Of a stretch of DNA of 37,162 nt, positions 1 to 3,532 are shown piece by piece; position 1 is the stretch's first letter; each line of letters begins with the position of its first letter. This DNA is from Acidobacteriaceae bacterium (GTDB taxonomy: Bacteria > Acidobacteriota > Terriglobia > Bryobacterales > Bryobacteraceae). The position numbers and the translations under genes are program-made. The notes under the pieces were generated by a model, which did no database searches, was not told the DNA's origin, and saw only the letters and a list, made by a program, of their open reading frames with translations. The stretch covers positions 1-37,162 of the forward strand of contig JAFATG010000207.1 of assembly GCA_019244055.1 (NCBI GenBank). The letters are read 5' to 3'.

Positions 1-143
1 GGGAGCCCGTACGGTCCTGATGCAGCTCCCCTTCAGGGATCAAGGCGATTCCCCTTGGTCGTTGCAAACGATTTAGGAATAGCCGAACGGCTCTACACCA
101 GTCAATGTCAGCAACGCCGACTTCTCGTCAAAGTGGATTCGGG

Positions 144-193
144 AAACGCTACGGCGTTTGAACTAACTCGCTGACGCGAGGGACGCTACGCGT
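144..193. other. Cluster of three short hairpins
   Basis: Three perfect short inverted repeats sit within 50 bases. AAACGC at 144-149 pairs with GCGTTT at 154-159 around TACG, so on the plus strand it would form a C(UACG)G tetraloop, one of the extra-stable UNCG class. CTCGC at 167-171 pairs with GCGAG at 176-180 around TGAC. ACGC at 183-186 pairs with GCGT at 190-193 around TAC. Such spacing is suggestive of a structured transcript, but no known RNA family was recognised and no promoter or terminator was identified. Confidence 0.35.
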
Positions 194-401
194 GCGTGCT
201 GATACGGCAAACCGGTTAGCTGGGCGGTCGCGTCATTGAGGGATAATGAAGCTTCGCCGTGTCGCCCTTTATTGTGCTGCAGAAGTCGTTTCCCCCGGCT
301 CCGCAGATGAGCAAACGGCGGAAATCGATTGAATACCCATAGCGGTAGGTTGCCAAACTCGGCCGCATCCCTCGCAAACGTCAGCGAATTCCCTCAAACG
401 G

Positions 402-476
402 CCTTATCGAAAGTGAGCCAGCGCGCAGTTTTGGTCCGTGTCTCGACTCGGTATCGCTAGCTCACCTCCGATAAGG
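402..476. repeat. 22-base imperfect inverted repeat
   Basis: The arm 402-423 is complementary to 455-476 at 19 of 22 positions; the mismatches are 410/468, 412/466 and 419/459. The enclosed loop is 31 bases. The outer eight pairs (CCTTATCG with CGATAAGG) are perfect. Such an arm length is well beyond chance for a 75-base stretch. It could be the stem of a structured RNA, a REP-like or miniature mobile element, or a protein binding site. A partial copy of the right arm (CTCCGATAAG) recurs at 651-660, which points slightly towards a repeat family or binding motif. Confidence 0.5.
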
Positions 477-669
477 TACTAGCGTTTGGCGGTGCTAATC
501 TTGGCGTTATTCTCGCGCAATTGCGGATCACAGTGACTGTCCCGGGACCCCCATGAGTTGGGCCAGCCACCGTATGAACCGTCTCCACTCGTACATCACG
601 GCGAGAGGGTAGGAGATGTGGGGCGAGCACCGAATGTGACCCGGCACCGGCTCCGATAAGCTGGGTTCA

Positions 670-1496
670 ATGAGATACGGCTACGGAAATCCAACCGCTG
701 AAATGCAGGAAGCATTTACGGCGGCCACAAGGCTGCTCAATGAGCAAGACGATGCCTCGCTGAGATATGCAGCTCTTGAACTGCGTCGGTGTCTCGAAGC
801 TCTCGTTTATGAAAAGCTAAAAACCTACCGGGATGTGCTCCCCGAAGGCTCGGTCAGTAGATGGCAGCCACCACAGGCGTTCGAGGCGCTCATTGAAATC
901 GAACCGGAAGCGCAGGAAACCTATACATTGCCGTCGCGCCAGAAACAGAACCGGGAAAGCTTTCGGGCGCTCCGTTCCAGCAGATCGGGGTAGATGAGCG
1001 TCCGAACGCCAAATGGATAAAGAAGACGTGGCATAGCTTGGGTTCTCATCTTCATGCAGAGTGGCCGTTTGCTACTTCTAAGAAAGCGCAGGAATCACCG
1101 AGGCCATTTCTTGAAAAAACACTGGCTGACCTGGAGCCGCTGGCCAACAACTCTTTCTCGGGGACGATGAATAACGTTGTTGAGTTCTCGTGCCAAGGCT
1201 GTGAAGAAAGGGTCAAAGTACTGCTGAAGGCCATCGAGGCTAAACATCATGCCGCTTGCCTGACGTGTGGACTACGGTATAGGGCGGAAAAGGTCGATGA
1301 CGGATGGATGTTTTATCCGGACGAGCCACCATTTAACTGCGACTCCTGCGGCAACAAAACCTATGTTGCTTCTGGGCGCGTCAAGGTCGGGTACGAATTT
1401 CCTTGTCGGTCTTGTGGGCGAAAGTTCGTGATTGTGCGGTCTGATTGGCGGTATGCTCCGCTTGAAAAACTAGACCAAGAGGCAGAGCCGAAATGA
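670..1496 (+). pseudogene. Frameshifted zinc-ribbon protein
   Basis: Two abutting open frames read as one protein of about 275 residues. The first (670-993) has a helical N-terminal region rich in Leu, Glu and Arg, followed by a WQPPQAFEAL segment. The second, open from at least 900 in another frame, continues with text such as KWIKKTWHSLGSHLHAEWP and runs to 1496. The join needs a one-base loss (or two-base gain) between about 915 and 960. The C-terminal part carries two zinc-ribbon-like pairs of CxxC motifs: CQGC with CLTC, then CDSC with CRSC. I associate the N-terminal half with a hypothetical family but know no function for it. It could be a pseudogene, a sequencing error, or programmed frameshifting. 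It converges on the minus-strand HEPN-like cluster. Confidence 0.5.
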
Positions 1497-1555
1497 ACCC
1501 AGCGTGTTAAATGTTTTAGCAAGGCGGTTACTCAAGCTGCTCGCAAGGAACGTTT

Positions 1556-1672
1556 TCAATCCAGCGACACACCTTTGTCGCATTGCCCGCAGGTGAAAGC
1601 AAAGACCTTGGAAAATCCCTTAATGCGATTGCGATGACCGCAATGCGGGCAAATCTCGTCAGCCGAACCCAC
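1556..1672 (-). CDS. 38-residue zinc-ribbon micro-protein
   Basis: A very short frame begins at a GTG (1670-1672) whose first base is the last base of the stop codon of the upstream HEPN-like gene, giving a TAGTG overlap typical of translational coupling. The product holds two zinc-knuckle pairs, CPHC near residues 8-11 and CGQC near 28-31, separated by 16 residues. This is the spacing of a compact zinc ribbon, and it nearly fills the protein. Coding is supported by the Cys pairs and the junction. It could instead be the detached C-terminal zinc ribbon of the upstream protein, read through by recoding. No function can be assigned. Confidence 0.45.
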   Translation of the reverse strand: MGSADEICPHCGHRNRIKGFSKVFAFTCGQCDKGVSLD

Positions 1673-2271
1673 TAATAGCTCCAATCGTCATAGCTATATG
1701 GGTAAGGCAGCGATGTTTCGATAGAAGTTAGAAGTTCCCTGTAACGACGTATAGCTGAGAAGTATTCATCCACAGTGCCGATGGGCTTATCCGCGAAGGC
1801 ATGGATTGCGTTACGCCTCGCTTGTGTCTCTTCGATGAAATCGTGATGGGCCGCGAGTATATCGCCTTTCTGAAGGAACTGCTTGATGCCTTCGAATTTT
1901 AGGGTGTTGGGAGGGATGGGAGCGCCTTTCTTGCAGACAGGCGCGTTCGCGTCCTTAAGATAGTCATGCAGGTAAACACATAAGAAAAGTTTTAGGGTTC
2001 CTTCAACGAGTGTTCCCAAGTGCGCCCAAGCTAGTATCAGGACTGCTGGCTCGTTCGGATGCGCCTGCACTTCCTCGACGCGCGCCCTTAACGTTCGGCT
2101 AAAAGAAGCAAGCCAGTCTAGGCGGGATTTAGAGAGAATCTCTGCGGCTTCCTTCGGTGCCCAGCCATGGGAATGCGCCCAGAACTTCGTCGCTTGCTCT
2201 GTTATCGCCGCAATCTTCCGGAGATGGTCATCTATCGTTTCGGTATAGCCGATCTCGAACCACTCAGCCAT
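1672..2271 (-). CDS. HEPN-like hypothetical protein
   Basis: A 199-residue, predominantly helical soluble protein with no signal peptide. Near residues 155-165 it carries the segment TQARRNAIHAF, which contains R-x4-H in the RNxxHxF style of HEPN domains. HEPN proteins include many RNases of toxin-antitoxin, CRISPR and abortive-infection systems, and also non-catalytic helical domains. The ATG at 2271 overlaps the end of a 55-residue upstream frame by eight bases, and the stop overlaps a downstream zinc-ribbon micro-ORF by one base, so the three look co-translated. The C-terminus is Tyr/Ser rich (YPYSYDDWSY). The HEPN call rests on one motif and the helical character; nuclease activity is inference. 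Confidence 0.55.
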   Translation of the reverse strand: MAEWFEIGYTETIDDHLRKIAAITEQATKFWAHSHGWAPKEAAEILSKSRLDWLASFSRTLRARVEEVQAHPNEPAVLILAWAHLGTLVEGTLKLFLCVYLHDYLKDANAPVCKKGAPIPPNTLKFEGIKQFLQKGDILAAHHDFIEETQARRNAIHAFADKPIGTVDEYFSAIRRYRELLTSIETSLPYPYSYDDWSY

Positions 2272-2431
2272 GCAGAACCACTTTAGCGGCTGTTTGCACT
2301 GGTTCTTTCAACGGAGGAGTTCCGGGAGTTCCGGGACAGTCACCATGATTCCGCATGGCAGTTGGACGTAAAACGCGCTGGTCGTAGAAGTGGTCCGCCT
2401 TTTCGAAAATTGTGTCTTGTTGGTCGGCCAT
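2264..2431 (-). CDS. Possible 55-residue protein upstream of the HEPN-like gene
   Basis: An ATG at 2431 opens a 55-codon frame ending at TGA 2264-2266, overlapping the ATG of the HEPN-like gene by eight bases. The product is hydrophilic and begins MADQQDTIFEKADHFYDQRV, with a GTPGTP repeat encoded by a duplicated CCGGAACTC-type unit near 2320-2336. The ribosome-binding site is weak. The same frame is open upstream back to a stop at 2474-2476 and then resembles a decayed gene, so this may be only the surviving 3' end of that gene rather than an independent antitoxin-like partner. Confidence 0.3.
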   Translation of the reverse strand: MADQQDTIFEKADHFYDQRVLRPTAMRNHGDCPGTPGTPPLKEPVQTAAKVVLHG

Positions 2432-2602
2432 CCCGAGAATGTCAACGATGCTGGTGGCCGCCGAGCGCAGATTTCAGTTCACGCATCGCGAACCAATCCG
2501 CGTCAAGCCGGCGGGTGGCTAACGCACGTCATCGGCCTCGGCGGTCCGAAAGCCCATCTCGAGCAGCAAGACTAAAACCTTGGCCTCCGCGTCGCCGAAC
2601 GG
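2432..2602 (-). pseudogene. Decayed coding remnant
   Basis: Reading the minus strand from 2602 gives a plausible protein segment (GDAEAKVLVLLLEMGF and on) that stops at 2519-2521. A neighbouring frame then continues as RALATRRLDADWFAMREL, and from about 2473 the first frame resumes as RSAATSIVDILG, running into the 55-residue frame below. So the first and last segments share one frame broken by two stops (2519-2521, 2474-2476), as expected from compensating indels. The pattern resembles the C-terminal tail of Rpn/PD-(D/E)XK transposase-like proteins, but that is a weak resemblance from memory. 2603-2770 shows nothing recognisable. Confidence 0.3.
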
Positions 2603-2790
2603 TCAGTCACAACAAGCAACACGCCCGCAAAATATCGCTAGCCCGCTCGGCTGATTCGACTTAACCCCACTCTCGCCACCAATCCCGATCCGTTTCGAGC
2701 CTTCTCCATGCTATTGTCTGGCAGGCTCAACAGAACCCCGACCGGCTAGGGAGGGATTCTTTTGGGCCATTTCCATTTCAGGAGCTCACC

Positions 2791-3483
2791 ATGGCAACCG
2801 AGGCCCAAATCGCAGCAAATCAAAAGAACGCGCAGCTCTCAACCGGACCCACCAGTCAAACGGGCAAAGCGAAATCTTCCCTAAACGCCGTCAAAACAGG
2901 ACTCACCGGCCGCACCGTTCTGCTGCCCAGTGACGACGCCGCTCTCTACGAAGCTCACGTCGCTGAGTTCATGAGAGTCTGGCAGCCGGTCGATGACAAT
3001 GAGCGCAACCTCGTCCAATCGCTCGCTGACACCGAATGGAGACTGCTCCGCATCCCTGCTCTCGAAATGGGCATCTACGCAATCGGTCGCCTCGAATTCG
3101 CCGGAGAATTCGCCAATGAGGACGAAGCGACCCGCAAGCATCTCGTCGAAGCCAAGGTTTTCCTCGCATATCGCAAAGATCTGAACAATCTGAGCATTCA
3201 GGAATCCAGGCTCCGCCGCCAGCGCGAGAAGGACACCCAGACCCTCAACGAAATTCAGGGTGAGCGCAAGCGCCAGGCCCAGAAGCGGCTGACCCAAGCC
3301 GCTAAGCTTTACATGCTGGCAGTGCAGGAAGACACTCGGGATCAGTTCAACTTAGGCGATTTTGGGTTCGAATTTACATTGGAACAAATCGAGGTCCGTG
3401 CCCTCGAGTTGAGGCCTGATCTGTTTGCGGCCTATGAGCGCGAACAGGCCGAGTTGGCCCGCAACCGCAAAAAGATCGCCTGA
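2791..3483 (+). CDS. Acidobacterial hypothetical protein (NAxKTGLTGR-type N-terminus)
   Basis: A 230-residue soluble protein with a good ribosome-binding site (AGGAG seven bases before the ATG). The N-terminus, MATEAQIAANQKNAQLSTGP followed by a GKAKSSLNAVKTGLTGR-like stretch, is a signature I associate with a large family of unknown function in Acidobacteriota and Planctomycetota, often present in several copies per genome. The middle is charged and probably forms long helices or a coiled coil (residues about 130-175, rich in Arg, Gln, Glu and Lys). No catalytic motif, membrane segment or signal peptide is visible. A DNA-associated role is possible from the basic N-terminus but is only a guess. 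Confidence 0.7.
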   Translation: MATEAQIAANQKNAQLSTGPTSQTGKAKSSLNAVKTGLTGRTVLLPSDDAALYEAHVAEFMRVWQPVDDNERNLVQSLADTEWRLLRIPALEMGIYAIGRLEFAGEFANEDEATRKHLVEAKVFLAYRKDLNNLSIQESRLRRQREKDTQTLNEIQGERKRQAQKRLTQAAKLYMLAVQEDTRDQFNLGDFGFEFTLEQIEVRALELRPDLFAAYEREQAELARNRKKIA

Positions 3484-3532
3484 AATCTCGAGGTTGCCTC
3501 GCATAGTTGAAAATAAGACAAGATCCTTATTT

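Follow-up and report, generated by a model that had tools for sequence, protein, structure and literature searches.

A rare HEPN-like protein family found sporadically in unrelated bacteria and plasmids, with a putative local zinc-ribbon microprotein at an Acidobacteriaceae locus

The DNA analyzed here, referred to as the window, is a whole stretch of 37,162 nucleotides (G000:C4:1-37162) from a source genome of 6.2 Mb in 372 contigs. Near its start, three frames follow one another on the minus strand: a 55-amino-acid frame with an ATG start (2264 to 2431), the frame of a 199-amino-acid HEPN-like protein, also with an ATG start (1672 to 2271), and a 38-amino-acid frame with a GTG start (1556 to 1672), a putative two-CxxC zinc-ribbon microprotein that would be 42 amino acids long if an in-frame TTG at 1684 were its start. 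An overlap of eight bases (2264 to 2271) joins the first frame to the second, and the stop codon of the second meets the GTG start of the third at the sequence TAGTG (1674 to 1670, read on the minus strand). An earlier note on this DNA had described these frames, the overlap, and the junction, and the sequence and the open reading frame (ORF) list bear the description out. Rfam returned no match in window positions 1 to 3500, no promoter was found at the locus, and the one terminator-like site seen did not rise above shuffled sequence. The locus carries one family-supported gene, that of the 199-amino-acid protein, which was assigned from the ORF list, homologs, alignments, and the published HEPN layout (PMC3710099).

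The family of the 199-amino-acid protein was assembled to eight members, the window's included, with pairwise identities of 37 to 61%; the seven homologs are about 37 to 48% identical to the window protein. Four of them are encoded on plasmids, namely Geobacillus pGS18, Sphingobium pYGP1, Rhizobium pRphaN841a, and a Massilia plasmid (39 to 42% identity), two of which are conjugative and two mobilizable. One homolog, about 48% identical, lies on a contig of a Halomonas MAG, and two further ones were found in other genomes of that MAG's phylum, so that the tally stands at four plasmids and four genomes, the window's genome among the latter. Plasmid searches with two other family members recovered the same four plasmids. 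No homolog was found among 39 other relatives or in a set of 296 further genomes from the window's phylum. In the phylum of the Halomonas MAG, homologs were present in 3 of 398 genomes, one of these being the starting genome; an order-level genome set gave a homolog in 2 of 390, both already known, and a class-level set gave matches in 2 of 369, one of them a known member. The other (G904) was dropped from the family because the match was too weak (E 9.4e-4, 19.5 bits) and, covering profile positions 35 to 105 in a 733-amino-acid frame, lay outside the motif region. The family was not found in phage records, nor in viral contigs by pattern-based scans. A scan of viral contigs for sequences coding for RRNAIHAF returned nine loci; each of them encodes RSNAIHAF, and their frames, 22 to 264 amino acids long, are apparently unrelated and were rejected. 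The codon score of the 199-amino-acid frame does not stand out: two of six shadow frames attain it, and scores no higher than this occur in 7.5% of 40 true-gene segments. Judged by its homologs, the frame is clearly more than a product of chance, and the family is a rare one, with a scattered distribution among unrelated bacteria and plasmids. None of four homolog accessions was found in any paper, and among the literature matches listed for RRNAIH, several concerned protein kinase A and none evidently a HEPN protein.

Alignment of the eight members revealed two conserved motifs. The sequence RRNAIH occupies residues 152 to 157 of the window protein, giving an R152-x4-H157 spacing, and the longer string RRNAIHAF is invariant in all eight rows; at eight columns it is the longest invariant run in the alignment, the next longest being five. 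Upstream, E90 is likewise invariant and is followed four residues on by Lys or Arg in 8 of 8 rows (K94 in the window protein), an E-x3-[KR] motif seen as EGTLK in three members and as EGALK, ESSLR, EGTIK, EGSMK, and EGQMK in the others. The stretch between the two motifs varies in length and sequence across the eight rows, as does the length of the proteins near residues 64 to 76 and at both ends. In the published description of HEPN domains, helix 3 ends with an Rx4-6H motif, helix 2 carries an acidic residue that is often part of Ex3[KR], and the insert separating these two helices is poorly conserved (PMC3710099). As far as the alignment can tell, the family matches these published hallmarks in kind and in order. 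One point speaks against the match: the residue after the first motif Arg is another Arg in place of the usual N, D, or H, the motif Asn coming after this second Arg, from which the spacing would count as x3. The N-terminal part has a family-specific conserved segment, FW....GW.P..AA..L. The earlier note had called the central protein HEPN-like from its Arg and His residues, a proposal strengthened by the retention of R152 and H157 in all eight members, by the equally constant E-x3-[KR] motif, and by an all-helical prediction.

That prediction comes from two structure models, each built from a two-row alignment. The models of the window protein (pLDDT 41.5) and of the Halomonas homolog at locus L002 (pLDDT 54.9) are both all-helical and weak. 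In the weak Halomonas model, E75xxxK79 lies within a helix spanning residues 60 to 90, and RRNAIH (137 to 142) falls near the end of a helix spanning 127 to 145, with the next helix at 152 to 172. A Foldseek search of the pdb library with the weak models gave nothing significant (best E 0.21), with a HEPN toxin chain (7ae9_A) at rank 32 and a probability of 0.12; VIA gave a best Z of 11.6, to unrelated helical bundles, and no HEPN chain by title among its best 50 matches. No significant match to the weak models was obtained in the pdb, pdb_via, and viral fold libraries. Sequence and profile searches gave a similar picture. The window protein had no match in Pfam or PADLOC (E ≤ 1) or among PDB sequences, and only a chance match in NCBIfam (E 0.17). 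The family profile drew one chance match from PDB sequences, a rhodopsin (E 2); Pfam returned nothing for the six rows of alignment A1 and one chance match, Wzy_C, for one of the eight rows of alignment A3 (E 0.056); and PHROGs gave four chance matches (best E 0.051). A comparison by hhalign with one authentic plasmid HEPN protein, pEK499_p136 (PF18736), reached a probability of 0.2%, and its single local alignment lays RRNAIHAF on MRNSVAHF. Because the models are weak and no fold or profile match was significant, membership in the HEPN group rests on the motif architecture.

The 38-amino-acid frame reads CPHC-x16-CGQC, two CxxC knuckles with the spacing of a zinc ribbon. It was assigned from Pfam zinc-ribbon models, which match it only below their cutoffs, and from resampling: only 0.65% of 2000 first-order resamples of positions 1550 to 2431 contained a frame of the form C..C-x14-22-C..C, and resamples of the whole window averaged 0.33 paired-Cys frames and never exceeded 3, whereas the window itself has 4. 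Besides the 38-amino-acid frame, these are two in a gene at 670 to 1496 and one in a protein that we take to be Fpg/MutM-like. A GGAG sequence stands six bases before the GTG start, within the last codons of the 199-amino-acid gene, and the TAGTG junction suggests translational coupling of the putative zinc ribbon to the HEPN-like gene. Its codon score is undistinguished, since 23% of 404 shadow frames score as high. A search of 246 further genomes from the window's phylum gave no relative at E ≤ 0.001, and none was found in plasmids; six weak matches in relatives (E 0.024 to 0.094) were dropped, and the best match in phages had an E of 0.8. The frame had no blastp counterpart (E ≤ 0.001) at any of the seven homologous loci, where no frame with paired CxxC motifs turned up closer than 1.4 kb to the HEPN gene; the three that the scan detected, at L002 and L006, are more distant. 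The two-CxxC zinc ribbon of the earlier note is thus upheld by a pattern unlikely to occur by chance, and we consider the frame probably a real microprotein, specific to this locus.

To compare neighbors, stop-to-stop frames of at least 25 amino acids lying no more than 3 kb from the HEPN gene were matched across the eight loci by blastp (E ≤ 0.001). Only the HEPN frames themselves, their shadow frames, and one weak match between L004 and L006 were shared; this last match (E 2.9e-4) is not near the HEPN genes and involves neither small frame. The earlier note had read the locus as a module of small partner, HEPN protein, and zinc ribbon, and this was not supported: neither small frame was found with the HEPN gene at any of the seven homologous loci, so that, for the module, the homologs occur without the flanking frames. 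A conserved membrane-protein partner was also considered. A codirectional gene lies upstream in four of the seven loci (L002, L003, L004, where it is of the TerC family, and L022) and encodes a membrane protein by hydropathy, but the four proteins do not match one another, and the candidate was rejected.

Ten proteins from six loci (L002, L003, L005, L006, L022, and L023) were scanned with PADLOC, two of them HEPN homologs and eight neighbors. The two homologs had no match. A PycTM match (E 8.5e-7) adjoins the L002 homolog, a PDC-S31 match (E 4.2e-53) is the second gene upstream of the L022 homolog, and a Septu-like PtuA/PtuB pair (E 1.1e-45 and 3.4e-29) lies at 99 to 2305 of L023 (G573:C2), upstream of the homolog, with the end of PtuB 1.3 kb before it. 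The neighbors scanned at L003, L005, and L006, and one of two at L022, had no match. Known or candidate defense genes thus stand near the homolog in three of the six loci tested, the other three being without a PADLOC match. Given the 1.3-kb gap after PtuB and the position of PDC-S31 as second gene upstream, these are neighborhoods and not operons. The accessory character that the earlier note had ascribed to the region is in keeping with the plasmids and with the PycTM-like, PDC-S31, and PtuA/PtuB genes near three homologs, and plasmid carriage together with defense neighbors fits a defense or addiction role.

The 55-amino-acid frame has a codon score of 0.009 bits per codon, which 28% of 245 shadow frames attain, and no counterpart at any of the seven homologous loci (blastp, E ≤ 0.001). 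No Shine-Dalgarno sequence was seen by eye before its ATG, and the frame crosses one arm of an inverted repeat. The right arm (2324 to 2349, minus strand), which faces inward and contains GGTGACTGTCCCGGAA, pairs with a left arm at 527 to 552 on the plus strand. The arms are 26 nucleotides long and 85% identical, and none of 200 resamples equaled the region's best inverted 26-mer, with 22 of 26 positions matching. The repeat core, GTGACTGTCCCNG, has three copies in the genome, two being this pair and the third inside a long open frame. Among 60 genomes, the motif occurs at 12 sites in seven, with gene context taken from three sites in the relative G009: one core copy is separated by 5 bases from a Y1_Tnp gene (Pfam, 2.4e-13), another adjoins a stretch that is 80% identical to the start of the Y1_Tnp gene region and has no Pfam match, and the third is beside other genes. 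In G1454, two core copies form an inverted pair. We take the repeat to be a REP-like intergenic sequence, of a kind tied to Y1 (RAYT) transposases. Since the codon score of the 55-amino-acid frame is at the level of shadow frames and an arm of this repeat lies within it, the peptide is read as spurious, and the frame is most likely noncoding.

The inverted repeat brackets both accessory genes. The second is the broken gene at 670 to 1496 on the plus strand, known from the ORF list and profile searches, which reads as two frames (670 to 993 and one ending at 1496) and is convergent with the HEPN/zinc-ribbon pair. Its C-terminal part holds CxxC pairs, where FmdB/Zn_ribbon_8 falls just below cutoff, and PADLOC gave a weak PDC-M14A match (E 0.0061); no relatives were found in plasmids or viruses. 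Elsewhere in the window, a dispersed repeat (2619 to 2785) lies upstream of a gene at 2791 to 3483, and contigs C173, C210, and C315 carry further copies of the gene, of the region upstream of it, or of both. Window positions 1 to 138 are 98% identical to C276:209-346, a near identity that may account for the assembly break at the contig start.

The closest known proteins in kind are the Abi-type HEPN RNases (AbiD/F, AbiJ, AbiU2, and RiboL-PSP-HEPN), with which the 199-amino-acid family shares an R-x4-H motif near a predicted helix end, E-x3-[KR] upstream of it, a variable stretch, an all-helical prediction, and a mobile or defense context (PMC3710099). It differs from them in the Arg that replaces N, D, or H, in its own N-terminal segment, and in the absence of a Pfam match at E ≤ 1. 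Abi HEPN proteins are proposed to stop growth upon triggering (PMC3710099). Tha, a HEPN anti-phage RNase of 301 amino acids from a Staphylococcus prophage, carries the motif R265NSIMH270, and is activated by phage tail proteins with a proposed Abi-like outcome; an overlapping antisense gene encodes a product that keeps it in check (PMC11087260). The likeness to Tha lies in a single effector protein with R-x4-H; the present protein is shorter, and its family, unlike the prophage-borne Tha, did not appear in phage records or in the pattern scans of viral contigs. The HEPN/MNT (HepT-MntA) toxin-antitoxin systems share the HEPN RNase motif, but no nucleotidyltransferase match was found among the neighboring frames of the window gene, and neither annotation nor Pfam indicated one among the neighbors examined at the homologs, many of which are annotated only as hypothetical. 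In the HEPN-zinc ribbon fusions tabulated in PMC3710099 (DUF4145-like, Swt1-like Npun_R5629, and Plim_2023), the two parts form one chain, whereas here they are separate frames and the pairing was seen only at this locus. What emerges is an unnamed HEPN-like family, unrecognized by the Pfam, NCBIfam, and PADLOC models used, of a kind that is already known.

The explanation we favor, with moderate confidence, is that of an orphan RNase of the HEPN type that arrests growth, supplemented at this locus by a zinc ribbon. The 199-amino-acid protein would act on its own, most likely as a metal-independent endoribonuclease, and, on the model of the Abi HEPN proteins and of Tha, would remain inactive unless triggered by phage infection or some other stress. 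Once activated, it would cleave host and/or phage RNA, and the ensuing growth arrest would protect the population or the carrier element. The variable stretch and the N-terminal part with FW....GW.P..AA..L are candidate sensor or dimer parts. That no conserved partner gene was found makes a classical type II toxin-antitoxin pair less likely and favors self-inhibition or an activator derived from a phage. The putative zinc ribbon, made from the TAGTG junction, would be a locus-specific accessory produced in step with the HEPN protein, probably a helper that binds nucleic acid or protein; the 55-amino-acid frame would have no part.

Three other explanations bear on the same evidence. The zinc ribbon might be essential, binding RNA or a phage product and targeting or restraining the RNase in a true two-gene unit, a split version of the described fusions that overlaps with our preferred explanation in all but this. 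The TAGTG overlap with its well-spaced GGAG, the resampling result, and the recorded HEPN-zinc ribbon fusions (PMC3710099) speak for such a unit, but at every homologous locus the 1.4 kb on either side of the HEPN gene lack a paired-CxxC frame, no convincing relative of the ribbon was found in the phylum, plasmids, relatives, or phages, and its codon signal is weak; we judge such a unit unlikely. Also rather unlikely, to our mind, is that the protein is helical and not HEPN, or is a HEPN protein without RNase activity, such as the RNA-binding regulator MtlR, its R, R, N, and H being conserved for another reason. The lack of any profile or fold match speaks for such a protein, yet R-x4-H, E-x3-[KR], and the variable stretch come in the published order, and the review that sets out this order associates absence of the motif with a probable loss of catalytic activity (PMC3710099); the family retains the motif. 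A three-part toxin-antitoxin or Abi module with the 55-amino-acid protein as antitoxin or partner is highly improbable: against the eight-base overlap, which invites it, stand the missing counterpart at all seven loci, the shadow-level codon score, the repeat arm across the frame, and the lack of a visible Shine-Dalgarno sequence.

A more speculative extension, which we regard as a long shot, is a mobile defense cassette, moved by a domesticated Y1 transposase, in which transposase-associated, REP-like inverted repeats (527 to 552 and 2324 to 2349) frame two zinc-ribbon-linked genes. If this were true, the cassette would combine a fused zinc-ribbon gene (670 to 1496) with a split HEPN RNase and its coupled 38-amino-acid zinc ribbon, and the latter would aim or gate the RNase as part of a split HEPN-zinc-ribbon effector. 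Under the explanation we favor, what looked from the sequence alone like a three-gene operon reduces to one conserved gene and one local add-on, and the motif residues of this HEPN-like family are clear enough for a direct mutational test.
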